Below, one piece after another: positions 41,151 to 59,838 of a stretch of DNA of 64,000 bases; the stretch's first letter is position 1, and every line of letters begins with the position of its first letter. Under the pieces are notes generated by a model. It was not told where the DNA came from. It was given only the letters and a program-made list of their open reading frames with translations, and did no database searches. The translations under genes and the position numbers were made by a program. The stretch covers positions 1 to 64,000 of the forward strand of contig JAJDUG010000067.1 in the NCBI GenBank assembly GCA_022826755.1. Direction: 5' to 3'. This DNA is from Acidobacteriota bacterium (GTDB taxonomy: Bacteria > Acidobacteriota > Terriglobia > Versatilivoradales > Versatilivoraceae).

Positions 41151-41247
41151 ACAAATGAATTGTTTATGGCCGATTGTTGCAGGGTGAAGCCCACCGTCGA
41201 TCCGGTAGGGAGTGCTTTCCCCGCCTCGTGAGTTACAGGGTTTATTT

Positions 41248-41273
41248 ACATCGATGCACAGGATGCACAGGAT
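41248..41273 (+). repeat. 26-bp inverted repeat at the left edge of the island
   Basis: The 26 bases starting ACATCGATGCACAGG include a direct repeat of GATGCACAG. Their exact reverse complement lies at 59766-59791, just beyond the other end of the restriction-modification operon. The two copies enclose all accessory genes of the window, starting with the integrase 231 bases inside. Whether they are part of an attachment process or members of a common repeat family cannot be told. Confidence 0.6.
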
Positions 41274-41503
41274 TTTTCAGGAAACGGCTAGCTCATTATC
41301 CTGCGCATCTGCAAATCCGCGTGCGATCATTGCCGGAGCCGGCTTCCGTTCAGTAACCGCCTTACCAATTCCAGTAACGTTTACTCTCGTCCGTTCCAGT
41401 CCATAAATGTATATTACTTCAGTATCTTAGACGATTTCCGCAGACCCTCGGCTGGCCCGAAACATCCCTTACAATCCACTGCCATCCCCCATGTAATTAG
41501 GGG

Positions 41504-42724
41504 ATGATTCATGTAACCAGCACCACCCGCCTGCTACGTAAGACGAAACCCAAGGGCCGCCATCCCCAAAAGACCCTCTCACCTGCCTTCGTCCGCTCCG
41601 CTCCGCCCGGAAGACACGCCGATGGGAACGGATCGTACCTCTTCGTCCAGCCCAGCGGAACCCGCAGCCGGATTCAACGCCTCCTCGTCCGAGGCCGCCG
41701 CCGTGAGCTCGGACCTGGCAGCGTTGCCCTCGTTCCCCTGGGCGACGCCCGGGAAAAGGCGCTCGCCAACCGCGGGCTCGCCCGCCAGGGCGGGGACCCG
41801 CTTGCCGAGAAGCGTCGTGCCGAGGCCATCCCCACCTTCGCCGAAGCCGCCCTGCGTGTGCTGGAGCAGAAGCGGGACGGATGGCGTAATCCGAATCACT
41901 CCCGAGAGTGGCTGTCGAGCCTGAGCCGTTTCGCCTTTCCGCGCATCGGCAAGGTCCCGGTCTCCGAGGTCACCAGCGCCGACGTGCTTGAGATCCTCAC
42001 GCCCCTCTGGCACCGGAAGGTAGCCACGGCCAAGCGGGTTCGCCAGCGCCTGCGGGCCGTCCTGGAATGGTCCGTAGCGATGGAGTACCGCATCGACAAC
42101 CCATGTGACCGGATCGGTCCGGTGCTGGGTCCCCAGCAGGACGTAACCGAGCACATGCAGGCCTTGCCCCATCGGGAGGCGGCTGCGGTGATCCGGACGG
42201 TGCGGGAATCGAGGGCATTGCCGGCCGCCAGGTTGGCCCTTGAGTTCCTGGTGCTGACCGCCGCCAGATGGAGCGAGGTGCGCTGGGCCGAGTGGGCGGA
42301 GATCGATCGTAGCGGGAGGGTATGGACAGTCCCGGCCAGGCGGGCAAAGACCAACCCCCGGCACCGGGTGCCGCTGTGTGGCCGTGCCCTGGAGATTCTC
42401 GATGCAGCGCAGAATCTGGAGGGGGGAGCCGGTCCTCTGGTGTTCACCCATGGGGGCGGGAAGCCTTTCCATGACGGCATGCTGCGCCGCCTGCTGCGCA
42501 GGCTTGGGGTTGCGGCGGTGCCGCACGGGTTCCGCTCGACCTTCCGGGACTGGGCGGGTGAGGATACCGACCACCCCCGGGAGGTGATCGAGGCGGCCCT
42601 GGCGCACGTGGTGCGGAACCGGGTCGAGGCGGCCTATGCCCGGTCGGACCTGTTCGAGCGCCGGCGTCTCCTCATGGACGACTGGGCGCGTTACCTGGCC
42701 CAAGGGTCCTGGGACGATGCCTAA
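41504..42724 (+). CDS. Tyrosine recombinase (phage/P4-type integrase)
   Basis: The 406-residue protein has the N-terminal DUF4102 arm-binding domain (AFVRSAPPGRHADGNGSYLF, LGDAREKALANRGLARQGGDPL), a core-binding domain and the catalytic domain. Catalytic residues are Arg in LTAARWSEVRWAEW, His-x-x-Arg in VPHGFRSTFRDWAG, and the Tyr nucleophile in VEAAYARSDLFERR. It would integrate and excise the element, usually at a tRNA gene, though none is seen nearby. It opens the accessory region. Confidence 0.92.
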   Translation: MIHVTSTTRLLRKTKPKGRHPQKTLSPAFVRSAPPGRHADGNGSYLFVQPSGTRSRIQRLLVRGRRRELGPGSVALVPLGDAREKALANRGLARQGGDPLAEKRRAEAIPTFAEAALRVLEQKRDGWRNPNHSREWLSSLSRFAFPRIGKVPVSEVTSADVLEILTPLWHRKVATAKRVRQRLRAVLEWSVAMEYRIDNPCDRIGPVLGPQQDVTEHMQALPHREAAAVIRTVRESRALPAARLALEFLVLTAARWSEVRWAEWAEIDRSGRVWTVPARRAKTNPRHRVPLCGRALEILDAAQNLEGGAGPLVFTHGGGKPFHDGMLRRLLRRLGVAAVPHGFRSTFRDWAGEDTDHPREVIEAALAHVVRNRVEAAYARSDLFERRRLLMDDWARYLAQGSWDDA

Positions 42725-42845
42725 CCCGAGGAGTGAGGCGGCGGCCAAGGTGAGAGCCAGGCTCGAAGTCCGGCGGCCTTCCAGGCCAGGTTGACGGGAA
42801 TGACTTGGCTCCAAGTCTTCACTTGGGTCTTCTCGTAGGGATCAC

Positions 42846-42958
42846 GGTGGTGGGAGCGACCCCCAGAGGCAGGGGAAAGGGATGAATAAAGGCATGAATA
42901 ACCTGCCCCTGCCCCGTGGCGCATCAGCGGCCAAAAAAGGGGGGGCGCTCCCACCACC
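42846..42958 (+). repeat. 113-bp palindrome-ended element A
   Basis: The ends 42846-42864 (GGTGGTGGGAGCGACCCCC) and 42939-42958 are inverted copies. The interior is GC-rich with two GATGAATAAAGGCATGAATA-like words. It is similar, in inverted orientation, to the element at 44818-44928. Between the integrase end and the second integrase remnant (42725-43249) there is no gene; the rest of this gap is GC-rich palindromic sequence. Confidence 0.6.
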
Positions 42959-43097
42959 GGCATCCCCTCTGGTGCGGCGCGCCGTTACGCCGGGCGGGAG
43001 GGGAACACGCGGGGCGCAGCCTCGCTTCGCCTTGTCGCATCAGACGCGGCAAATCCGTGTTGTCCCGCGTCTGATGCGGCGCTTCGGGAAAATCCCA

Positions 43098-43126
43098 GAC
43101 CACAACGGCGAGGGCTTTGCCCTCTG
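43098..43126 (+). repeat. 29-bp inverted repeat C, left copy
   Basis: Twenty-nine bases beginning GACCACAACGGCGAGGGC occur in perfect inverted form at 44648-44676. The sequence itself contains a hairpin (GAGGGC...GCCCTC). It lies inside the larger inverted arrangement around the gene at 43642-44610. Confidence 0.65.
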
Positions 43127-43249
43127 CGAGGGAAGTGTTGGGGTTGTCAAACGTGCGCACCATCCCGGTGAATAACCTGGTCTCTGTAGAGTATTCACTC
43201 ATACGGCGGCATCTGCTTGACCCCGGAGACGAACATCGCCGATCGTTCC

Positions 43250-43468
43250 ACGGCCGTGCCGCAGGGGTTCCGCCCGACCTTCCGAGACCTGGGCGGTGAG
43301 GAGAAAGACTATCCCGGGGACGTGATTGAGGCAGCGCTGGCGAATGTGATCCGCAACCGGGTCAAGGCGACCTGTGCCCGCTCGGACCTGTTCGAGCGCC
43401 GGCGTGTCCTGATGAACGACTGGGCGCGTTACCTGGCCCACGGGAGGGCGAAGGACTCGAAGGATTGA
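43250..43468 (+). pseudogene. Integrase C-terminal remnant with lost catalytic residues
   Basis: The frame reads VPQGFRPTFRDLGGEEKDYP and later VKATCARSDLFERRRVLMN, matching the last 70 residues of the full integrase at 41504-42724. The catalytic His is Gln (HGFR to QGFR) and the Tyr nucleophile is Cys (AAYARSD to ATCARSD). The rest of the gene is missing. It is a relic of an earlier integration or of a duplicated element end. Confidence 0.8.
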
Positions 43469-43641
43469 TAGCCAAGCGGCCGTTCTTGAATCCTCCATTG
43501 ACATCTCTCTCCCTCGCCTTCCACAGAGGGGAGGGAGAGTGTGTGCGCCAGTCTCCAAGCACGTGACAACACCCGGACTGCCGCCCTCGTCGACACGCTG
43601 AAAGCCTACAGCCCGCCTGAACCTGCCGGCATGGCGACGCC

Positions 43642-44610
43642 ATGCTCAAGACCAGGGAAACCATGATTGCCCTCCTGCAGGGACGGGAAAAACTGCTGGA
43701 ACATATCGGCTTCCCCCGGCAACAGGCCGAATGGATCACCCTGGTCTGCCTTCACTCGGGTCTGTTCACCCGAGACCAGTTCGCCTTTTACCTACAGGGA
43801 GCCAACCGCTTCTACGTCCGGCGATGCGTTAAGGCCCTGATCGATTGCCGGGTCTCGTCCCGGCCGTTCGCCGACGAACGAGTCATCGACGGCCGGCTCA
43901 TCTGTCGTATCTTCGGAAAGCAGATCTACGAAGTGCTGGAGATCCCCCATGTCCGTCACCGCCGGGAGGCCTCGCTTGAAGTCATCGGGAGGCGACTGTT
44001 GTCTCTCGACTTCGTGCTGGACCATCTGGAGTTGCCCTGGTTGACGACCGAGCAGGACAAAGTCTCCTGCTTTGAGCAACTCGGGATCGGGAGAGACCTG
44101 CTGCCCCGCAGGATCTACTCCGGCCGGGCCAAGGGACAGATCCACTATTTCCCCCTCAAGACGCCGGTTGCCGTGGGGCCGGAGGCGGCCGTATTCGTCT
44201 ACGTCGACCCCGGCATGGGAACCCGTAGTAGGCTGGACTCCTGGGGAGAGGCCCACCGGCGGCTTTGGGAGAAGCTCCGCAGGTCGGGCCGGCGCATCGA
44301 GGTGGTTGCGGTCGCCTGGGAGCAGGAACTGCTGGACCGCGCCGGCCGGAGGCTCCGATCCTGGGTAGCCGAAAAGATGAGCGAGGACGAAAAGGAAGCC
44401 CTCATGCTTCGCCAGGCCATCGCTGAGACCGATTTTGACACCATCGAAGGCCATGGCGGCTGGGATGCCGTCGTAGAGAAAATCCTCCGATGGGATCGGG
44501 AAGACCCGGCGCCCAAGGGCCGCGAAATGATCGACGATTTCCGCCTGTGGGGGTCACGCCGATGCCGTCGTATGGGTGGCCACCTTACAAAGGGGGGGTG
44601 GCGCAAGTAG
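43642..44610 (+). CDS. Uncharacterised mobile-element protein with winged-helix-like N terminus
   Basis: The 322-residue protein is basic and soluble. The N-terminal 100 residues (HIGFPRQQAEWITLVCLHSG, FAFYLQGANRFYVRRCVKAL, ICRIFGKQIYEVL) look like the winged helix of replication-relaxation proteins found on mobile elements. The middle has LLSLDFVLDHLELPWLTTEQ and FVYVDPGMGTRSRLDSWG. I recall similar proteins in integrative elements of other bacteria but no known function. The gene is flanked by inverted repeats (42846/44928 and 43098/44676), so it may move as a unit. Confidence 0.7.
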   Translation: MLKTRETMIALLQGREKLLEHIGFPRQQAEWITLVCLHSGLFTRDQFAFYLQGANRFYVRRCVKALIDCRVSSRPFADERVIDGRLICRIFGKQIYEVLEIPHVRHRREASLEVIGRRLLSLDFVLDHLELPWLTTEQDKVSCFEQLGIGRDLLPRRIYSGRAKGQIHYFPLKTPVAVGPEAAVFVYVDPGMGTRSRLDSWGEAHRRLWEKLRRSGRRIEVVAVAWEQELLDRAGRRLRSWVAEKMSEDEKEALMLRQAIAETDFDTIEGHGGWDAVVEKILRWDREDPAPKGREMIDDFRLWGSRRCRRMGGHLTKGGWRK

Positions 44611-44647
44611 CTGGTGCACGATTTCGGCAATTACAAATCTGCACTAT

Positions 44648-44676
44648 CAGAGGGCAAAGCCCTCGCCGTTGTGGTC
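44648..44676 (-). repeat. 29-bp inverted repeat C, right copy
   Basis: This is the exact reverse complement of 43098-43126. It begins 38 bases after the stop of the bracketed gene. The gap 44611-44952 is otherwise GC-rich palindromic sequence without a supported gene. Confidence 0.65.
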
Positions 44677-44817
44677 AAGGTTGTGCCCGGGAGTCCGCAT
44701 TGGAAGGGGGTTGGCACGGATTATCCGAGTCCTATGGGGCAAAGCCCCGTGCGCTGGCGGCATCGTTTGTCCGCGCCTCGCACGGCGCGTCGTGGCGCCG
44801 CACGGGAGGGGGGGGAT

Positions 44818-44928
44818 GGTGGTGAGAGCGACCCCCATTTTTTCGCCGCTGGTGCGCCACGGGGGCGGACAAAGGTGGCGGCCAAGGTGGCAGCCCTTTG
44901 CCCCCGGCGGGGAGGTCGCTCTCACCAC
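44818..44928 (-). repeat. 111-bp palindrome-ended element B
   Basis: The ends (GGTGGTGAGAGCGACCCCC at 44818-44836, and its inverse ending at 44928) match element A. Read on the opposite strand, element A also shares the inner words TTTTTT, CGCCGCTG and TGCGCCACGGGG with it. A and B are thus inverted copies about 2 kb apart. Confidence 0.6.
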
Positions 44929-44952
44929 AGAGATCCCTGCGGGAAGGCCTAA

Positions 44953-45280
44953 ATGAAGACCTGGACGCAAGGCATTCTCACCATTCTTGCACTGACGGCC
45001 GTAGCCGTGTCATGTGGCTCTCTCCCTGGTCAGTCCTGGGCGAGGTCGCCTTGCCAGACTTGGTGCGGGCAACAGATTCCTTCATGCATGCCCTTTTTGC
45101 CGGCCACCCCGGAGAACGAGTCGCTGAACTTCGAGCTGCGGGGGACGCGCAGTGCAGGAAATGCCTTTGGCTGACAGAGCAGATCTTGAGATGTGGGGAC
45201 AGGCCACGCTGCGGTGGCGGGCGTTGGTTGGTGAGTGCGGCGTGCACAGGCTGCAATCGAACAACTGCAAAATACTAAAC
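44953..45280 (+). pseudogene. Frameshifted small gene, possibly a lipoprotein
   Basis: It starts with an ATG and a lipoprotein-like signal, MKTWTQGILTILALTAVAVSCGS (lipobox AVSC). The frame then loses sense, while a second frame (LPDLVRATDSFMHALFAGHPGERVAEL) and a third (REMPLADRADLEMWGQATLRW, preceded by a join near 45150) look more protein-like. Two shifts would join these parts. I do not recognise the family. Positions 45281-45654 after it show nothing. Confidence 0.35.
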
Positions 45281-45654
45281 TTATTACAGATAGGACCGCT
45301 TTACTCTCCTCAATGTGTCCCCACTTTCGATCAGGATTCTATCGGACCGTTCATAACATCTCGGGACAGGATGTCCGAAGCGAAGAAACCGCGGGTCCGG
45401 GGACTGTCGAGTGGAGTAGCAATCTGCGCGCACTGCGAGTCGGCGACGCCACTAACGGTTAGAGACAGGTCTGACGTGAAGACTGGTGCACAGATTGAAA
45501 AAGGCCACCCATCGGCGAGCTTCCTCGTTCACTATTGAGTTACCTGTTATTGCAGGGGGTACGCATCCCCGCTCCTTTGGTTATAAGACTAGCTTGTTTA
45601 TAGCCCGTGCCTCCGACTCAGTCACTTCCGTTATGCACGCTTCGTCGCCAGTTA

Positions 45655-47373
45655 CTATTCGGCATCGAGGTCGTCGCCGGACGACAAATCGTCCGGGTCG
45701 TAGTTTTCATCAGGTTGCCGGACCCCGACTTCGTCGATGGAGCGTTTGGGCACCCACGCCCGGAGCTTCCTGGCGATTAGCTTGCACCGCTCCCGGAAAA
45801 ATAGATCGTAATCGTCCTGCCAAACTCCGAAGTTATCGAGATCGATCAAGTGCGTTTTCATGGTTTCCTTGAGGTTCGGGTTTTCCGTTCTGAACGCCTC
45901 CATATAGACAGATGGAGCTTTGGCCCTTATCTCCCGTTTGTTAAGGAAGTCGTCCACGATGGTGATGTTGGCGACATGGTTGATGTACCAGTGTTCTTTG
46001 CCGTGCCTCCTCAAGTGGGCGCGAGGAAAGAAGTGATGGTAATTCCTGCTGTTGGCCCGCTTCAGCCAGTCATTGGCGACGCGCACCTTGGCACCTGACG
46101 CGAAGGATTCCGGTTGTTGGTACGCATACAGGCAAAGAATCGCCTTGTTAAAGCTGCGTCCTGTGTTGAAGTACCCATTCGATTTGATTGAGCCGGCGCT
46201 GAGGTCGACGCCTTCGTCGTAGTCGGGCTCCTTGTCCTGAAGCGCCGCCTCGACCCGCTTGATGTCGACGGCAAGCTTTGCCTCGACGGCTGAGGTGTAC
46301 CGACCGGAGAGCGAGATTCTCCAGAAGAGTTCTCGCATCCACTTGCGCTGATTTCCTTTGGGCTCCTTGCCCGCTTTGGCAAAGAAGTACCCGAATGGCA
46401 CAATCAGCGCCGCGTACGGTAGGAGCTTCGATACAGGAATCCTGAAGTAGCTTCGGAAATAGTCACACGCCGCTTCGATGGCGTTCTCGACCGTCGGCCA
46501 AGTCCTGCGGAAGTCAGCCGTATTCAGGCGTAAGATATCCTGCTTCTGGCATCTACCGACCATCAGGAGGCTGGCAAGTTGGAGCAGCGCCGCGGGTGGA
46601 ATTGTGCCATAGTCTACGGCTTCCAGCCGCGTTCGTAGCGCCTTGTACAACTCAGCCAAGTCAAATCCTGATTCGTGGTCGTAAGTCTTGGCAACCATGA
46701 TTTCGAAGACCGAAAGGGGCTGCCCACTGACATTGATTCTCGTGAAGATTTCGGTGGCGATGTCAATCGCAGCATCTTGGATAAGGATCACCGAGAACTG
46801 ATAGGTCTGGAGGCGCCTCTGGTAGGTCTGGAGTTGCTTTCGTCGGGTGGCATTGAGTCTTGCGAGCAGTTCGAACTCGCCGTTGAGCAGGTCGACGAGA
46901 CGTACGCAGTGCCCGTCCAATTCGGCCGAGGCAACATCGCCCTGTGGCGCGATGGCCACGAGCGGGGCCTCCGCATCATCCCCAGCGTCTGCATCCAGGT
47001 CCACAAAGATGTCTCGGAAGTCGTTGGGGCGCTCGTCTCGAGTGACCGTGAGTCCCTTGCAGGCGGCGTAGAGGCTCGTAAGCCGTTGCTGGCCGTCCAA
47101 GACCTGCTCGGAGTAGTCTCCTGAGGGGGTCGGAGGAAGCGTCTGTCCTCCGATCTCTTTCACGAAGCGGAGTTGCTCCTTCGTCTTCCACAAGATGAAC
47201 GTGCCGATCGGAAAGCCTTTCAGGATGCTGTCGATCAGCTTGGCCGACTTTTCCCGTGGCCACACGAACTCGCGCTGAAACTGCGGGATCTTGAGTGTTC
47301 CAAACTCGATACCCGACATTACCTTTTCAAAACTCCGCGATTGGGGGTCCGGCTGGTTCATCGATGCCTCCAT
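45655..47373 (-). CDS. DUF262/HNH protein, GmrSD-like restriction enzyme
   Basis: The 572-residue protein starts in a DUF262 (ParB/GmrS-like) domain: IPQFQREFVWPREKSAKLID, and the NTPase signature VLDGQQRLTSLYAA. The C-terminal part has an HNH-type nuclease pattern, SRNYHHFFPRAHLRRHG, then NHVANITIVDDFLNKREIR, as in the GmrD/DUF1524 group. Such single-chain GmrSD proteins are type IV restriction enzymes that cut modified phage DNA using nucleotide. GC content is lower than in the core genes. Met5 is another possible start. It is transcribed alone and opposite to the following defence genes. Confidence 0.8.
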   Translation of the reverse strand: MEASMNQPDPQSRSFEKVMSGIEFGTLKIPQFQREFVWPREKSAKLIDSILKGFPIGTFILWKTKEQLRFVKEIGGQTLPPTPSGDYSEQVLDGQQRLTSLYAACKGLTVTRDERPNDFRDIFVDLDADAGDDAEAPLVAIAPQGDVASAELDGHCVRLVDLLNGEFELLARLNATRRKQLQTYQRRLQTYQFSVILIQDAAIDIATEIFTRINVSGQPLSVFEIMVAKTYDHESGFDLAELYKALRTRLEAVDYGTIPPAALLQLASLLMVGRCQKQDILRLNTADFRRTWPTVENAIEAACDYFRSYFRIPVSKLLPYAALIVPFGYFFAKAGKEPKGNQRKWMRELFWRISLSGRYTSAVEAKLAVDIKRVEAALQDKEPDYDEGVDLSAGSIKSNGYFNTGRSFNKAILCLYAYQQPESFASGAKVRVANDWLKRANSRNYHHFFPRAHLRRHGKEHWYINHVANITIVDDFLNKREIRAKAPSVYMEAFRTENPNLKETMKTHLIDLDNFGVWQDDYDLFFRERCKLIARKLRAWVPKRSIDEVGVRQPDENYDPDDLSSGDDLDAE

Positions 47374-47440
47374 TCATCAAGCTACTTTGGATAGTACTCT
47401 TCCTGCTGAATCAGCATGCTCGGACGCTGCTGGATAATCA

Positions 47441-47854
47441 ATGGCGGAATCTCGCTCGGATTGTCCACTTCTGGCACGCACGTCCCCAGGATTTACAGGC
47501 CATAAGCGACCAAGAGGAACGTTGCGTCTTTCCGCAATGGGATCCGGCACCCATACTCGGCCAGCCGATCAGGTCGTCCGGAAAGCCAACATCGCTAATT
47601 ATGCATTTGGCAAGTTGTCTGGGCCAGACGGATTCCCGTCGGGAGTCAAAAACTACATCGACCTTGCTTCCTCCGCCAAGTACAAAGAGTCCATATCCTT
47701 ACTAGGCGTTCTTGGACTTCTCCCTCTCATACGCATCAGTACTGGTAAATCGGTAGGTTTCGTGGATCTCTTTGGAAACAGACCGGACACATTGCTGATT
47801 CTCCAATGCGCGTTATTTGATAACCGCGTTCGGAGAGCAGGCGAAATACGGTGA
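47441..47854 (+). CDS. Hypothetical ORF of uncertain reality
   Basis: This is an open frame of 137 codons whose second half (NIANYAFGKLSGPDGFPSGV, KYKESISLLGVLGLLPLIRI) reads like a protein, while the first half is arginine-rich and out of keeping. No family is recognised and no ribosome site is seen. It could be the end of a truncated gene. The stretch 47855-48281 that follows holds no gene that I can support. Confidence 0.25.
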   Translation: MAESRSDCPLLARTSPGFTGHKRPRGTLRLSAMGSGTHTRPADQVVRKANIANYAFGKLSGPDGFPSGVKNYIDLASSAKYKESISLLGVLGLLPLIRISTGKSVGFVDLFGNRPDTLLILQCALFDNRVRRAGEIR

Positions 47855-48281
47855 TCCTCTATCGTCGCCATCCCCCGCCCCACGATTTCTTTGGACAATG
47901 ACTTGAGAAACTCTGTGAGAAGCTACAGGGAAGGAGGGTCACGCTATGTCGAGGGGAAGGGATGGAGGCTCTGGGGACACGAAGGGAGCCCGTAGGATGA
48001 CCGGATCGACCCCACCTGCCGGCCGTAGCGGGAAGGGGCGGTTGTCAGTGAATTCAGGCACCTCGCCAGCATCGTGCTATTCTATTTTGGACTCTTGATC
48101 GACAAGCCGCTCGGTGATTGACCGTGACGGTGCGGGGCAGCCTACTGGACTCTTCGAGAGTCTATGCTACAGCGCTGATATCCGTGGCCTGCGGAGCGTC
48201 GTTGCCCCCCTCGACTGCCGAGGTAAGACACGTCGAATCAGGTAGACGACCAAGCAGAATAGAGCACGGAGGTTTGTAGGA

Positions 48282-49040
48282 ATGGTCGCAGCAAAGAAAA
48301 AATCACCAAGAGCGCTCGCCGATCACAGGAAGGTCGGAAACAAATTTATACCTCCTTTGACTGCAGAACTCGGACCGCTCACCGAGATTCGATGGGTCAA
48401 CGACCTCGTCCCGGAGTTTGTGTGGCTCGCACTGCTAAGTGACAGGTATGGTCTCAAGATGGGAACAGATCTGGCACGTCGGTTGGCACTCGCAGCGACT
48501 GTCGTGCGGGGAGCAAAGCGAAAGGCATGGTTCGCTCTAGCAAGCGCGTACGCGGAGTTGGATCCGTCCGAGCGCGACGCTGTTGTGGCCAAGTTAGAGG
48601 CAGACGGCATCGCGCAACAGATACGCGAAGCTCTATCGCCACTATTGACGTTCTATCCAGAATGTCCCCTGAGATTCCTCTTCGTTGACCTCCCACGGTC
48701 GGGGAACAACTCACTGGAGGACTTCAAGACCATCCTGGAGTTAGTCTTTGATAAAGGGGATATTCCGGGAACGTTCGCGCAGGCGACAGCGGTCTACATT
48801 GCTTTCGTCACCGATATGCTGAAGGTCTTCAAGGGCTTAGCGCTAGCCAACTTTCCCGCTATTGAGGATTATCCTAGTACAGAGGAATCACAGTGTGTCG
48901 CCAGTTCGGTAAGGTCAACAGTGTTGACCTTCTACAGCCAATTCAAAACTGATCACTCAACCGCTTGGATCTCCTACTTTTGGAAGCGTGGCCTCGACCT
49001 CGACGACTGCAAGCTCGACGAAGAGAGAGGGGCAGAATGA
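48282..49040 (+). CDS. Hypothetical protein, first gene of a two-gene unit
   Basis: The 252-residue protein has a lysine-rich start (VAAKKKSPRALADHRKVGNKF) and then a mostly helical body; I see no signal peptide or membrane helix. GGAGG lies upstream of the ATG. Its stop overlaps the start of the next gene (ATGA), so the two are made together. I recall co-occurrence of such pairs near restriction systems, without a known role. GC is lower than in the core genome. Confidence 0.7.
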   Translation: MVAAKKKSPRALADHRKVGNKFIPPLTAELGPLTEIRWVNDLVPEFVWLALLSDRYGLKMGTDLARRLALAATVVRGAKRKAWFALASAYAELDPSERDAVVAKLEADGIAQQIREALSPLLTFYPECPLRFLFVDLPRSGNNSLEDFKTILELVFDKGDIPGTFAQATAVYIAFVTDMLKVFKGLALANFPAIEDYPSTEESQCVASSVRSTVLTFYSQFKTDHSTAWISYFWKRGLDLDDCKLDEERGAE

Positions 49041-49858
49041 TGGACGAGGGCTTAAGTCTCAATGAGATCCTGACAAACCTCATCCAGGGCCATCGAGCAG
49101 AACTCGGTGCACGGTGGGAGGCGTGGGAACTAGATTTAACTAAACCCCAACTGCATGAAGTGATAGGAGGCCTGATGGCGAGGCAGGTCTCGTTGGCTAC
49201 GCAGTTGGCACAGTCTCCATCAGCCTGGAATGGTCACATAGCACCGCTCATCCTACGGGCTATGACGGATGTTTACATAACGCTCGCCTGGATCTTCCAG
49301 GACCGCGAGAAAAGGACGGACGAATACGTCAAGTACGGTCTAGGCCAACGAAAGCTGTGGTTAGAACACTTCAAGAGATCCCTCGTCGAGAGAGGCGAAA
49401 AAGAACCAGAGAAAAACCTGTTCGTGAAAGCTCTTACAAGACAATTGAACGCCGAGCGTTTTGAGCACATCACAGAGGTTAATGTAGGAGCTTGGTCCGA
49501 GCGAAGCACTAGGAAAATGGCCGAGGAAGCCGGATGTCTCGACCTGTATCGGCTAGCCTACACACCATTCAGCACAGCGGTTCATAGTATGTGGACCCAT
49601 ATCGCCGGCTACAACCTCCGTCGATGCCGGAACCCCTTGCACCAGTTTCACCGAGTGCCGGAAGATTCCGATCTGGAACCAGACATAGACTACGTGTATC
49701 GAGCTGCGAAATACGTCGCCAAGACCTTCGCTCTCTTCGACCGAGAAACTGGCGTGTCGGTAGAAACACCATCGTCCTTGGACCAATTCGTGGAGTCCCT
49801 TGCCCATCCGACCGGTGAGGCACAGACGGACTCTCCCGATCCCTTGGACGACCTATAG
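49037..49858 (+). CDS. DUF5677-like helical protein, second gene of a two-gene unit
   Basis: The product is 273 residues, helical and soluble. The pattern LILRAMTDVYITLAWIFQDREKR, EYVKYGLGQRKLWLEH, and later YTPFSTAVHSMWTHIAGYN resembles DUF5677 proteins, in which an Arg in the first helix and a Ser/His pair in a later helix are conserved. Two start codons stand in tandem (ATGATG). The four-base overlap with the gene before it and the place next to hsdM suggest an anti-phage pair (inference). Confidence 0.65.
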   Translation: MMDEGLSLNEILTNLIQGHRAELGARWEAWELDLTKPQLHEVIGGLMARQVSLATQLAQSPSAWNGHIAPLILRAMTDVYITLAWIFQDREKRTDEYVKYGLGQRKLWLEHFKRSLVERGEKEPEKNLFVKALTRQLNAERFEHITEVNVGAWSERSTRKMAEEAGCLDLYRLAYTPFSTAVHSMWTHIAGYNLRRCRNPLHQFHRVPEDSDLEPDIDYVYRAAKYVAKTFALFDRETGVSVETPSSLDQFVESLAHPTGEAQTDSPDPLDDL

Positions 49859-50037
49859 TGTCAGTTTGTGTACCAATGGCATAATGAGAGACCAATAGAG
49901 CAGGAACGGTTCTGCCCTCCTGATGACAATGGCCTCAGCATAAGTACCGTCAAATCCAGCGGCCTTGAGGACTTCGCTCGCTTCCTTGAACGCAGCCACA
50001 TTTCGGGAATGGCACGCCTCCAGCACGTCCGTTCAGA

Positions 50038-50179
50038 CACTCTGATGGAGGACGCCATGATCACCGCGACGGCCGTCGTGCGACGGCCGACGGGCGTGAT
50101 CCGCAATATGCGCGACTTTGATCAACTCGGGGTAGATCTCCTAAATCCATTCGAACACGAATCCAACGTGCGGCGGTAG
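50038..50179 (+). pseudogene. vapC-like toxin, 3' remnant
   Basis: The frame MEDAMITATAVVRRPTGVIR, then [17 protein letters not shown], is the typical C-terminal end of VapC PIN toxins (normally DAxIAATA...TRNVRDF...LNPF). The N-terminal two thirds are missing; the sequence upstream in the same frame is unrelated. It ends eight bases before hsdM. Confidence 0.6.
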
Positions 50180-50187
50180 CACCACCC

Positions 50188-51803
<1,616 letters not shown>

Positions 51804-51807
<4 letters not shown>

Positions 51808-52049
51808 CGGTACAGGAGCTGAACCATGTCCTATGGACCTATCCGGCGGACATACGCGTGGTCGTGAACGGCTATGCAGAGGGCTTCGACAATGTGTCGC
51901 CCAAAGGGACCTTTGTGGTCAAGGTGAGATTGAACCGAGGTAAGAAAGACTGGTAGGGTCGGCACCTGGAATCGGAAACCCAGACTGAAGAAATGGCTGC
52001 TGGCGGCAAAAACGTGGACGCTCTGGTGTTTCTCCGGAAGTCTAATTGA
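51804..52049 (+). pseudogene. Small gene of the restriction operon with an in-frame amber stop
   Basis: The ATG overlaps the hsdM stop (ATGA). The first 50 codons read [20 protein letters not shown], then VNGYAEGFDNVSPKGTF, the start of a small conserved protein. A TAG at 51954-51956 follows GKKDW. The same frame then continues without break as GRHLESETQTEEMAAGGKNV, then DALVFLRKSN, to a TGA at 52047-52049, and DALVLRR-like ends are what I recall for this family. So an 81-codon gene is cut by one nonsense codon. The product may be a 50-residue peptide, or the gene may be dead. Confidence 0.6.
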
Positions 52050-52111
52050 TGTGACATAGTGTCTATGGATATTTGCGAGGTCCTGGATTTAGAGGATCGG
52101 AGGCATGAGCC

Positions 52112-52528
52112 GTGATCGAATACGACAAGTTTCGGATGTCCCTCAAGCGTCTTGAGGAGCAATACGAAAATTACCGGCAATCTGACGACTCCCTGCCTGA
52201 ACTGACCCGGGAAGCCATCGCCGAGTCGGCCATTCAGCGTTTCGAAACCTGCTTTGACTGCCTCTGGAAAGTGTTGAAACGATACTTGATTGAAGAGCTA
52301 GCCCTCGCGGACGCGCCCAACAGCCCCAAGGGCATTTTCCGACTCGCTAATGAGAACTCTCTGTTCGCCGCGCCACTGAATGAATGGTTGGGTTACGCCG
52401 ACGCCCGCACCGGTACGGCCCACGATTACAGTGGGGAGAAAGCACAAGCCTGCCTGGACATCATGGGCACATTCATTGACGATGCCATTGGCCTCTACCA
52501 GACCATGACCAGAGAAACATGGGACTAG
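52112..52528 (+). CDS. HEPN-domain toxin (HepT / nucleotidyltransferase substrate-binding family)
   Basis: The 138-residue all-helical protein starts at GTG. It has the HI0074-type pattern YDKFRMSLKRLEEQYEN, ESAIQRFETCFDCLWKVLKR and the catalytic motif R99-TGTA-H104-D-Y106, an exact RX4HXY as in HepT RNases. In known pairs the partner MntA nucleotidyltransferase AMPylates this tyrosine and blocks the RNase. The gene overlaps the next by ten bases, and that gene carries the MNT domain. It therefore forms a toxin-antitoxin pair embedded in the restriction operon. Confidence 0.88.
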   Translation: MIEYDKFRMSLKRLEEQYENYRQSDDSLPELTREAIAESAIQRFETCFDCLWKVLKRYLIEELALADAPNSPKGIFRLANENSLFAAPLNEWLGYADARTGTAHDYSGEKAQACLDIMGTFIDDAIGLYQTMTRETWD

Positions 52529-54135
52529 ACCGGTCCATCGACATCACGGCAGAGGAACGCAAGACCGTTCTTATCTTGCTCGCGAGGTACCTGCCGAACA
52601 CCACGGCTTGGGTGTACGGCTCTCGGGTCAAGTGGACGGCACGCCCGGAGTCCGATCTGGATGTGGTGGTGTTCGCAACTCCGGAGCAAGCTGGCCGCGT
52701 TTCCGAACTCAGGGAAGCCTTTGAGGAAAGTAACTTGCCCTTCCGCGTGGATTTGTTTGTCTGGGATGAAGTCTCGGAACAATTCTGCAAGCAGATTCAG
52801 GCCGAACATGTGGTGCTAGTGGAGAGAGAAGAGCGGGGCGTTGAGGGTAGCTGGCGCACTACGCCCTTCGCGCGACTCTTCGCGGAACCGGTACGCAACG
52901 GAATTTACAAGAAAAAGGAGTTCCACGGCCGCGGCAAGAAAATTGTAAACATGGGTGAGCTATTTGCTCATCCGCGACTTACTGCTGTGCCGATGAAGAG
53001 AGTGGAGCTCTCGGAATCGGAGATTGACCGATTCCACATCACAGCGGGTGACTTGCTCTTTGCACGTCGGTCGTTGGTGGCGGAAGGCGCTGGCAAGTGC
53101 TGTGTGGTCCTTGACGTAGACGAGCCGACAACGTTCGAGTCCTCGATCATACGAGTTCGGCTTGACAGTGCAAAAGCGGATTGCCTCTATTTCTATTATT
53201 TCTTTGGGTCAGCATTGGGCTTACACCACCTTGACACAATCCGACGCCAAGTCGCGGTTGCTGGGATTACCGGAAGCGATCTTGCACAGCTCGAGATTCC
53301 AGTTCCACCACCCTCCGAACAGCGGGCGATCGCACACATCCTGGGCACACTGGACGACAAGATCGACCTAAACCGGCGGATGAACCAGACGCTGGAGGAA
53401 ATGGCGCGGGCACTGTTCAAGTCCTGGTTTGTTGACTTCGACCCCGTGCGGGCCAAGATGGAAGGACGCGATTCAGGGCTGCCGAAGGACATCGCCAGTC
53501 TATTCCCTGAACGGCTGATGGACTCGGTATTGGGGGAGATACCGGAAGGGTGGCGACACGAGACGCTTCCCATCTTGGCCAATGTTGTCTACGGAGCTCC
53601 GTTTGGCTCGTCCCAGTTTAGGACTGACGGGCAAGGAATTCCGCTCATTCGAATACGGGACCTCGGGTCCCAGGCTCCTGGAATCTCAACCAAGGAACAG
53701 CACAGAAACGGTCACTTGATTGTGCCGGGCGACATCGTGGTTGGAATGGACGGCGAGTTTCGACTGCACATTTGGAAAGGGCCAGCGTCTTGGCTCAATC
53801 AGAGAGTTTGCCATTTTGAACCGAAACCAGGAGTGCCCATTTGCTACCTCTCGGAGGCCTTGAAGAAACCTCTGGCGCTTTTTGAGAATACAAAGGCAGG
53901 CACGACCGTTATCCACCTTGGCAAGGCAGACATTGACAGCGTCTTGCTCTTGAACCCGGGAGCGCGAGTGCTCGCGGCATTCGGGAACGTGTGCACAGCC
54001 ATCTTAGAGCTACAGGTCACCAAGGCACTTGAGGCCCGTGCTCTCGCGGCCCTGCGCGAAACGTTGCTCCCAAGGCTGGTCTCCGGGGAACTGCGGGTAA
54101 GAGACGTCGAAGAATTCATCGAGAGTACAGTCTAG
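52519..54135 (+). CDS. hsdS: MNT nucleotidyltransferase fused to type I specificity subunit HsdS
   Basis: One 538-residue frame holds two parts. Residues 1-105 are a minimal nucleotidyltransferase: GS at 34-35, ten residues, then D46-L-D48 (GSX10DXD), and a third acidic residue in FRVDLFVW (Asp78). From about residue 111 (SWRTTPFARLFAEPV) it is HsdS: a first target-recognition domain, the conserved helix IPVPPPSEQRAIAHILGTLD with LDDKIDLNRRMNQTLEEMAR, a second target-recognition domain, and a C-terminal helix ending LRETLLPRLVSGELRV. No ATG lies between the parts; only GTG codons near residue 98 could start a separate HsdS. The HsdS part (about 430 residues) is of full length. The upstream gene is the HEPN partner. 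Confidence 0.88.
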   Translation: MGLDRSIDITAEERKTVLILLARYLPNTTAWVYGSRVKWTARPESDLDVVVFATPEQAGRVSELREAFEESNLPFRVDLFVWDEVSEQFCKQIQAEHVVLVEREERGVEGSWRTTPFARLFAEPVRNGIYKKKEFHGRGKKIVNMGELFAHPRLTAVPMKRVELSESEIDRFHITAGDLLFARRSLVAEGAGKCCVVLDVDEPTTFESSIIRVRLDSAKADCLYFYYFFGSALGLHHLDTIRRQVAVAGITGSDLAQLEIPVPPPSEQRAIAHILGTLDDKIDLNRRMNQTLEEMARALFKSWFVDFDPVRAKMEGRDSGLPKDIASLFPERLMDSVLGEIPEGWRHETLPILANVVYGAPFGSSQFRTDGQGIPLIRIRDLGSQAPGISTKEQHRNGHLIVPGDIVVGMDGEFRLHIWKGPASWLNQRVCHFEPKPGVPICYLSEALKKPLALFENTKAGTTVIHLGKADIDSVLLLNPGARVLAAFGNVCTAILELQVTKALEARALAALRETLLPRLVSGELRVRDVEEFIESTV

Positions 54136-56047
54136 TGTCTACCGCGACTCTGACAAGCTTGGCAATGCTGAAGGTTCATGTGGACCAGGGACAGGATTAC
54201 CTGGACTACCTGCAACCCTTTGTTCTTCAGGTACTTGTAGCACACGCGCCAGAAGTGATAACCGATGCTAGCGTTAGAAATCTCATAAGGGCCGACTTCG
54301 GCCTGGAGATTCCTGACCGTGCGATTCAGATCGTGCTCAAGCGGTTATCACGCCGATACCCATTGAAGAGGGCTGCCGGCGTTTATCGGATCACAGGTAA
54401 GCTGCCTGACCCTCACATCAACGCCAAAAAGGCCGATGCCACGCGACACATCAATGCGGTGATAGCAGGACTGAGCGAGTTCTCCAAGGGAACCACCAAT
54501 CCCGTTGGAAGCCACGATGAAGCCGTGACCGCGATCTGTGCGTTCCTCACACAGTTCAACATCCCGTGTTTGCGCTCATACCTTCGTGGAACGGCAATTC
54601 CGGCCATCGAGAGTCAACACCACTCGCAGATCGTTCTCGTGAGCAAATACGTCCTAACGTTACAGAACACGGACCCAGAACGCTTTGAAAGCTTCCTCGT
54701 GGTCGTCAAAGGACACATGCTGGCAAACGCTTTGCTTTGTCCAGACCTCAAGAACGCCCCAAACTCCTACAAAGGTGTAACGTTCTTTCTGGATACGCCA
54801 CTTCTCGTTCGGCAGTTGGGGCTTGAAGGAGAACCAAAGCGGGCGGCCGTTAATAGCTTGGTCACGTTGCTTCTCAGCCTGCGTGCCACGGTTGCGACGT
54901 TTTCACACTCACGCGATGAACTTGAGAGAGTGATTATGGGAGCATCTCAGTATGTCGAATCTCTGGCTGGACGTGGGGCCATCGTTATGGAAGCTCGCAG
55001 ACGCGGAACGACTAAGTCGGATTTTCTCGTCTTGGCGGGCCAGATCGATGACAAGCTCAAAGATGCTCAGATCGACGTACTTAGCACGCCACGGTATGTA
55101 GAGGGTTTTCAGATTGACGAGGCGGCATTCGAGAAAGCACTTGGTGACGAAGTATCGTACCTGAATCCTCGCGCCAAGGAATACGATATCAACTCTGTTC
55201 GCAGCATCTACGTGCTTAGGGCAGGTATGTCACCGACAATTCTCGAGCGGTCGAAGGCTGTTCTTGTCACAAGCAATGCTGGGTTCTCTCGGGCGGCATT
55301 TCAGTATGGGCAGAGCCACGAGGTGTCACGCGAGGTGTCGAGCGTGATCACGGACTTTAGCTTGGCAAACATGGCGTGGCTGAAGGCCCCACTCGGCGCG
55401 CCAGCAATCCCCATGGCAGAGTTGTTGGCGTTCTCCTATGCGGCACTTGAACCATCAATGGAACTGCTTGAAAAGTACCTGAGCGAGATTGACAAGCTCG
55501 AGAAGCAAGGAAAGATCACTGCGCGCGATCATCAACTCCTGCGAAGCAGCCAGTTGGCGCAGACGGAACTGATGAATTTGACGCTCGGCGAGGAAGAGGC
55601 CTTAACGGAGCAGACGGTAACGGAGACGCTCAGGCGGGTGACGGAAGAGATCAAGAAGGAGGAGAGCAACAAGTACAAGATGGAGCGAGGGGCACACGGA
55701 GAGACTCGGAAACAGCTTGCCGAACAGCGTAAGATCAAGAAGGATGTTCAGGAACGCCTATATTGGCATTGCCGACGGCGGGCCACAGTGTATGCGTGGT
55801 GTGCGTCGATAATCATTGTTGGACTGCTTATCGGAGGTCTTGCCATGGGTGTTGGCGTACGATCAAATGATCCAACCGTAGGATATCTGCTCATGGCGGC
55901 GTCGGGCGTTCTCAGCACCTTGACATTGGGCAACCTGATTTTCGGAACTAGTGTTAGGCGTATCCACAAAGCAGTGCAGGACCGTTGCTTAACTTGGCTC
56001 ATCAGCCGCAAAGCTGCGGAAACCGGGCTCGATCTAACTGACATGTA

Positions 56048-56048
<1 letters not shown>
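54135..56048 (+). CDS. Predicted PIN-like membrane-anchored protein of the restriction operon
   Basis: The 637-residue protein starts at GTG overlapping the hsdS TAG by one base, and its TAA overlaps the hsdR ATG by one base. Residues 30-90 may be a winged helix ([20 protein letters not shown]). Residues 215-390 resemble a PIN-like nuclease: [16 protein letters not shown] (Asp220), [11 protein letters not shown] (Glu262), [14 protein letters not shown] (Asp351), [11 protein letters not shown] charged coiled coil (about 460-560) follows, and two membrane helices lie near the C terminus ([18 protein letters not shown] and [15 protein letters not shown]). PIN assignment is by motif only. It is neither HsdM, HsdS nor HsdR. 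Confidence 0.7.
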
Positions 56049-59173
<3,125 letters not shown>

Positions 59174-59337
59174 ACCTGAATTTATGATCCCGCGCGGGGA
59201 AAATCGGAATCGCTTAACGCTATTGGGATGAGTTCCTACTCGCCAGCTTCGGGTTCCAGCGTTGATCTCTCAGTGAATTTGTCCATGAGTAACTGTTCGG
59301 CCAGCCGTGAGCTCAACCTCCTGCGGGTTTGTCCTCT

Positions 59338-59550
59338 ATGCCGACCGAACAACCGACGAAGCGTCCCCCCTTCCACCTCCATCGGAACTGGGGGCAGAGA
59401 GCGGAGATGAGACCCGTGGTGACGGAACGATTTGGTCGGTTCACCAGCCGTGTAGGGGGGTCGCGGCTGGCGTGCACCCTCGGCTGGCCTGTCCGGCGGG
59501 TGGTCCGGCCGCTACGTTGGTGGACCGGCGGCGACACCGATGCAATGTAG
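59338..59550 (+). CDS. Small basic hypothetical ORF
   Basis: The frame of 70 codons begins MPTEQPTKRPPFHLHRNWG and is rich in arginine and tryptophan near the end (RRVVRPLRWWTGGD). It is the only plausible frame in the 665-base gap after hsdR. No ribosome site or family is seen. The rest of the gap (59551-59765) is AT-rich and empty, as is 59174-59337. Confidence 0.25.
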   Translation: MPTEQPTKRPPFHLHRNWGQRAEMRPVVTERFGRFTSRVGGSRLACTLGWPVRRVVRPLRWWTGGDTDAM

Positions 59551-59765
59551 CTTGATCGCTGCGGAGAGGATGCTGATCGACCGTTCTTCCACGGCTTGGC
59601 CGAACGGTTACGGTCCACGAAAGTCTTCGAGGGTCCAATGGATTCCTGTCGATAAATAGGAATTTGATGAGGGGAGCGAAGTGGTGAGAACTATATTAAG
59701 TCTATTATTATTAGTGGTTTAAAATTGATAGGGTGCTGATCGTGCAGCAGCGTCCCGTCTTGGTT

Positions 59766-59791
59766 ATCCTGTGCATCCTGTGCATCGATGT
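59766..59791 (-). repeat. 26-bp inverted repeat at the right edge of the island
   Basis: This is the exact reverse complement of 41248-41273. It lies after an AT-rich stretch (59640-59760) and 48 bases before the end of the next core gene, which marks the probable right limit of the accessory region. Confidence 0.6.
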
Positions 59792-59838
59792 TGATTATTA
59801 CGAAAAAATATCGATCCTTGGCCTCTTCAACGCATTGA

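Follow-up and report, generated by a model that had tools for sequence, protein, structure and literature searches.

A predicted mobilizable defence island in an acidobacterial genome carries inverted arms that appear to derive from a conjugative operon and share a structured palindrome, a putative transfer origin

The window (the whole 64,000-nucleotide stretch of acidobacterial DNA analysed here) holds what looks, from its sequence, like a mobilizable defence island with an integrase and restriction systems rather than a small transposon. Two inverted arms lie within this island, and each reads as a fragment of a conjugative operon that comprises the 3' tail of a gene encoding a 322-aa protein, a short hairpin (H), a structured palindrome (P) and the start of virD4/traG. 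Many defence islands encode an integrase but no visible means of exit from the cell. Through P, a family of such islands in an uncultured genus of Acidobacteriota is connected with a conjugative operon, which offers a candidate route for the spread of restriction systems and LRR proteins. We consider this anatomy, namely the structure of P, the operon origin of the arms, their conservation, their association with islands and the empty sites, to be very probably correct.

Results

An 18.4-kb integrase island is missing from relatives

The segment at 41347–59739 (18.4 kb) was missing at the same place in three relatives, G003, G004 and G001; the relatives named for this Terriglobia-type genome are all uncultured MAGs. 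In G001, sequence corresponding to window positions 41235–41353 was joined straight to that of 59740–59798, while in G003 and G004 the genes flanking the island were adjacent to each other. These empty sites define a mobile unit of ~41,347–59,739 with an integrase at its left end, and both hallmarks of a tyrosine-integrase island, an integrase at one end and a precise empty site in relatives, were thus found. The first-pass annotation had proposed that the segment between two palindromic elements, A (42846–42958) and B (44818–44928), is itself mobile and that empty sites might be found in relatives. Empty sites do tie the arms to gene movement, but what is missing is the whole island and not the A–B segment; the island ends 1.5 kb from A and 14.8 kb from B, so neither element is an island terminus. 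No direct-repeat att core was obvious in the window, where the junctions were ambiguous by only 8 to 11 bases. The island sits in an intergenic palindromic repeat (ATGGATGCACAGGATGCACAGGAT..., window 41235–41353 and 59740–59798), and the flanks of other islands likewise hold repeats that occur in tens of copies per genome.

The integrase gene (41504..42724, + strand) is intact, encodes a 406-aa tyrosine integrase (Pfam Arm-DNA-bind_3, Phage_int_M and Phage_integrase), starts ~158 bp from the left island junction and lies ~120 bp outside the left arm. Searches for its homologues gave ~20 matches each in the window's own genome (G000) and in G001. According to Pfam and PADLOC, the cargo comprises a GmrSD_N protein that is a candidate for defence (PDC-M55C; 45655..47373, − strand), a DUF5677/DitA-like protein (48965..49858, +), the type I methyltransferase HsdM (50188..51807, +), HsdS (52519..54135, +) and the type I restriction endonuclease HsdR (56048..59173, +). 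The GmrSD_N gene was absent from all six relatives searched. HsdS has an N-terminal nucleotidyltransferase-like domain (Polbeta/NTP_transf_2), an unusual fusion, and a 637-aa protein encoded between hsdS and hsdR (54135–56048) had no Pfam or PADLOC match. A scan of the island's ORFs against the same two collections returned the integrase, the 322-aa gene and the cargo, with no mating-pore genes; virD4 is represented on the island by 5' fragments only.

The arms read as two fragments of a conjugative operon

Elements A and B are inverted relatives, as had been noted earlier, with 84% complementarity over 56 bases (42912–42967/44809–44864). Each element is also self-palindromic, so that a match is found in either orientation, and we set them as inverted on the basis of an off-centre UGGU hairpin and a T-run. 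Further inside, the 29-mers at 43098–43126 and 44648–44676 (GACCACAACGGCGAGGGCTTTGCCCTCTG) were confirmed by reading the sequence to be perfect reverse complements. These repeats had been described as nested; they are present where they were placed, but alignment of the arms with related loci showed them to be parts of a single imperfect inverted repeat of ~420 bp (~42837–43257 against 44949–44526) with ~70% identity.

The left arm begins with an inverted, decayed virD4/traG 5' fragment (42725..42836, −) that abuts the integrase stop codon; its reverse complement reads MKTWSQVIPVNLA... and resembles the gene that follows P in intact operons. This fragment is followed by P(−), which comprises element A and a 3' hairpin (42823..42958, −; covariance model score 120 bits, fold z −5.4), by H(−), a GAGGGC...GCCCTC hairpin (43098..43126, −), and by the inverted, decayed 3' tail of a 322-aa-type gene (43169..43250, −), which shows reverse homology to ~44578–44531. 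The right arm contains H(+) (44648..44676, +), P(+), which comprises element B with the conserved 3' end GATCCCTGCGGGAAGG (44818..44946, +; 122.5 bits, fold z −3.7) and has conserved pairing, and a decayed virD4/traG 5' fragment (44953..45104, +) that can be aligned with the beginning of the coupling protein of loci L053, L062 and L063. Both copies of H are repeated in the window's own genome. The inner portions of the arms are clearly decaying, with stops and frameshifts in the gene tails. The two window arms fall in different hairpin families, and the nearest relatives of each are found elsewhere rather than in the opposite arm; the arms are therefore not a duplicated pair.

The arms failed a test for intrinsic terminators (a GC stem and then a T-run), as the stem of P is followed by AGTGATCCC and H by GCCGTTGTGG. 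An Rfam search of the arms gave no family at the gathering score and a single sub-threshold chance match elsewhere. No real relatives were found among PLSDB plasmids searched with arm DNA, and a search of IMG/VR with the 322-aa protein, the P pattern and the coupling protein gave no matches.

The arm tails have their full-length parent in the 322-aa gene

Between the arms lies an intact ORF for a 322-aa protein with no named family (43642..44610, +). Its relatives within the genus share 56–90% identity with it and occur in an operon context: intact operons with the order virB8, 322-aa gene, H, P, virD4, virB11 and primase (RepB-type) were found in L053, L062, L063 and L195, and in these operons P ends directly before the virD4/TraG start codon, at the ribosome-binding site. 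Because the arms correspond to the gene–H–P–virD4 junction, the 322-aa gene that had been regarded as transposon cargo is instead the full-length parent of the arm tails, located between virB8 and virD4 in intact loci. Likewise, the ends that had been called MITE-like are, by this comparison, fragments of the conjugative operon.

A winged-helix-like start had also been proposed for the 322-aa protein, which we did not confirm: there was no sequence match in Pfam, NCBIfam, PHROGs or PDB, no credible family emerged when PADLOC was searched as well, and an AlphaFold2 model built from six homologues had a mean pLDDT of 40, which is too poor for use. Close relatives of the protein were confined to the genus, with weak ones elsewhere in the class, and PLSDB plasmids contained no real relatives. 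With a dN/dS of 0.36–0.44 relative to its homologues, the intact gene appears to have been under moderate selection until recently, and its invariant location between virB8 and virD4 points to a possible role in DNA transfer. One source of the intact operon, contig G002:C355, encodes RepA_C, ParA, ArdC, VirB4, VirB9 and Replic_Relax-like proteins and has no detectable integrase, and thus looks plasmid-like; the Replic_Relax-like protein is a weak match only. The same contig (L195/L209) contains a 7.6-kb internal duplication with 99.4% identity.

P is conserved in structure, with one hairpin of variable sequence

P is an imperfect palindrome of ~112 bp. The 45 copies examined share one plan: an outer stem, a small hairpin whose loop is of the UGGU type, a long hairpin of variable sequence and, at the 3' end, a TCCC–GGGA hairpin. 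In their alignment, 95.3% of tested cells were paired, with 54 both-side changes, and the covariation score was reached by none of 500 shuffles. Related sequences may beat shuffles without any structure, and this was guarded against by slide and arm-swap controls. Sliding the partners in the alignment collapsed pairing to 43–65%, and the arms of hairpin 1 folded at −22.0 kcal/mol with their own partners compared to −15.3 kcal/mol with shuffled partners, the best of 1000 shuffles reaching −17.3 kcal/mol. The long hairpin fell into at least nine sequence classes, each of which still pairs with its own partner. Identity was 0.82–0.89 in the core of P, 0.59 in the gene tails and 0.49 directly past the 3' boundary of P. 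Judged by these comparisons, P is the conserved, selected part of the arms. One derivative (L071, 42–157) lacks hairpin 2 and forms a near-perfect hairpin of ~90 bases, as might result from an inverted duplication of one half.

With the covariance model, P was detected in every one of the seven genomes of the genus. Among 54 other genomes the model gave one or two weak matches, the stronger of which (L172) is again downstream of the same integrase type. At E ≤ 0.001 there were 20 matches in the window's own genome and 34 in G001; some sites match on both strands, and G001 has 26 distinct strong sites. In G001, a complete genome, 20 of these 26 copies lay within 500 bp of a gene tail (0.14 expected) and 8 lay within 500 bp of an integrase (0.16 expected). 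P is repeated but closely tied to mobile islands, and is not the common intergenic repeat unconnected with gene movement that the first-pass annotation had raised as a counter-explanation.

The same layout recurs around other cargo

Twelve loci in G000, G001 and G003 have an inverted pair of P copies around cargo, nearly always with an integrase of the same family next to one P; as these loci were selected as pairs, their number illustrates the layout without testing it. The earlier suggestion that the arms might surround other genes was thus borne out at about a dozen loci. The cargo between paired arms included a type III restriction-modification system and an AbiJ-like gene (L137), UvrD and TmtA-like helicases (L140), an AAA_21 ATPase and a thioredoxin-like protein (L134), and LRR proteins (L145 and L149). 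The LRR proteins are very large (L145, 6579–13296; L149, 7109–11926), and one has a reprolysin-like domain. The orientation of P relative to the integrase is nearly fixed; L203, L144 and L172 are exceptions, with one arm only or P in the opposite orientation.

Clean empty sites were found for two further arm-bearing islands, one of ~15.1 kb in G003 (contig C49), with an 11-base overlap, and one of ~13.4 kb in G001 (L140). Their junctions lie outside P, upstream of the integrase on one side and ~590–660 bp beyond the far P on the other. In L140 (17837–18456) and at about ten other loci, the far P is succeeded by a common right-end segment ("class 1") of up to ~600 bp that stops close to the island junction; the window island does not have it.

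The left arm appears to be a later addition

On the inner side of the left arm lies a displaced integrase 3' end (43251..43468, +), recognised earlier as an integrase relic, and its first part (43251–43444) is indeed 84% identical to 42513–42706 of the intact gene. In L061, the counterpart of the relic is continuous with the integrase gene, which represents the layout before insertion, and the order there is integrase, 322-aa gene, H and P, without a left arm. By this comparison the left arm is a later addition, a 738-bp segment whose arrival replaced the 3' end of the integrase and moved the former end inward, where it persists as the relic.

Discussion

We propose that these islands arose from conjugative elements by loss of the transfer genes, with P retained as a cis-acting site of DNA processing. 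The island integrase would catalyse excision and, in the recipient, insertion; transfer would depend on a related conjugative plasmid or ICE, whose relaxosome and coupling protein would operate on P in trans. The inverted arms could supply shared homology for the exchange of cargo between islands. A position beside the coupling-protein gene fits a transfer-origin reading. P is common to islands and intact conjugative operons, and no relaxase was linked to it, the Replic_Relax-like protein being a weak match only; two inverted copies per island exceed what a transfer origin needs. On this sequence-based evidence P is probably a functional cis-site, and its specific identification as a transfer origin (oriT) is tentative. 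The whole explanation, an integrase island with conjugative-operon arms and P as a cis-site, most likely an oriT, mobilized by a helper, has in our judgement an even chance of being correct. It is established that some islands bear a copy of a helper's oriT and rely on the helper relaxosome (PMC5397120, PMC11389934). The hairpin of P, always paired and variable in sequence, makes the specificity between island and helper directly testable. A bolder version, to which we assign little weight, would make P a new cis-acting DNA element whose variable hairpin sets helper compatibility, with the paired arms allowing islands to swap defence and symbiosis cargo in a cassette system based on conjugation sites in place of attC sites.

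The arms could instead be decaying wreckage, leftovers of old conjugative elements that homologous recombination gathered among integrase and operon fragments and that have no present function. The stops and frameshifts in the gene tails, the abundance of integrase fragments and the origin of the window arms from different element lineages are what such wreckage would show, whereas P is highly conserved and base-paired amid decaying neighbours and its orientation relative to the integrase is nearly fixed; we regard this reading as unlikely. In intact operons P lies immediately before the virD4 start codon, so that it could also be a structured leader RNA or attenuator of virD4 that is carried in the islands as a passive passenger, and P does fold well as RNA. 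However, most island copies keep the structure without virD4 downstream, no Rfam family was matched, and G-U does not outnumber A-C among the 1x1 mismatches of hairpin 1 (5 and 10, respectively), which argues weakly against a constraint on RNA only; a leader is improbable overall. The lack of strand bias in the mismatches would suit a single-strand origin or promoter active on the transferred DNA after entry, rather than a nicking site, as would the occurrence of P as an oriented, structured, DNA-level signal on conjugative elements. The position of P upstream of virD4, however, is more usual for oriT than for leading-region promoters, and we give a role after entry slim odds.

A composite transposon or MITE pair that moves 42846–44928 would account for inverted arms, sharp outer boundaries and varied cargo at many loci, but is highly improbable: the empty sites map to integrase-island junctions (~41,346 and 59,740) far from A and B, there are no near-identical terminal copies, the arms being ~70% identical, from different hairpin families and neither a copy of the other, a target-site duplication was not seen, the flanks are recurrent and not random (an integrase on one side, the common right-end segment on the other), and in the comparison with L061 the left arm alone was added. 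A MITE was rejected as well, as the arms descend from a conjugative operon and not from a DNA transposon with matching ends.

Our literature search found no paper on the host genus by name and none joining sponge symbiosis with such islands. P resembles REP/BIME elements with their RAYT in being a short palindrome with a GTGG-type head and tens of copies per genome, but unlike these it is associated with integrase islands and with a conjugative operon. A RAYT/REP origin was rejected because the window's own genome has no Y1_Tnp gene despite ~20 copies of P; other relatives have one to three such genes. With integron attC sites P shares an imperfect palindrome with conserved ends and a variable middle near a tyrosine recombinase, whereas the island integrase is of the Arm-DNA-bind_3 type and its domains do not establish it as IntI. 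P as an attC or integrase attachment site was rejected, since the integration junctions map elsewhere. Islands of the MGIVchHai6 type have a MobI-like factor and xis of their own (PMC5397120), neither of which was found in the window island. The closest likeness is to iOriT islands such as MGIVflInd1, which are mobilized by SXT/R391 ICEs (PMC5397120, PMC11389934): both types encode an integrase and no transfer genes and include restriction-modification among their cargo, and both would share a cis site with a co-resident conjugative family, P being the candidate here. The islands described here differ in that each has two inverted copies of P, which is only a putative oriT, and in belonging to a different phylum, with a hairpin that is hypervariable yet always paired.
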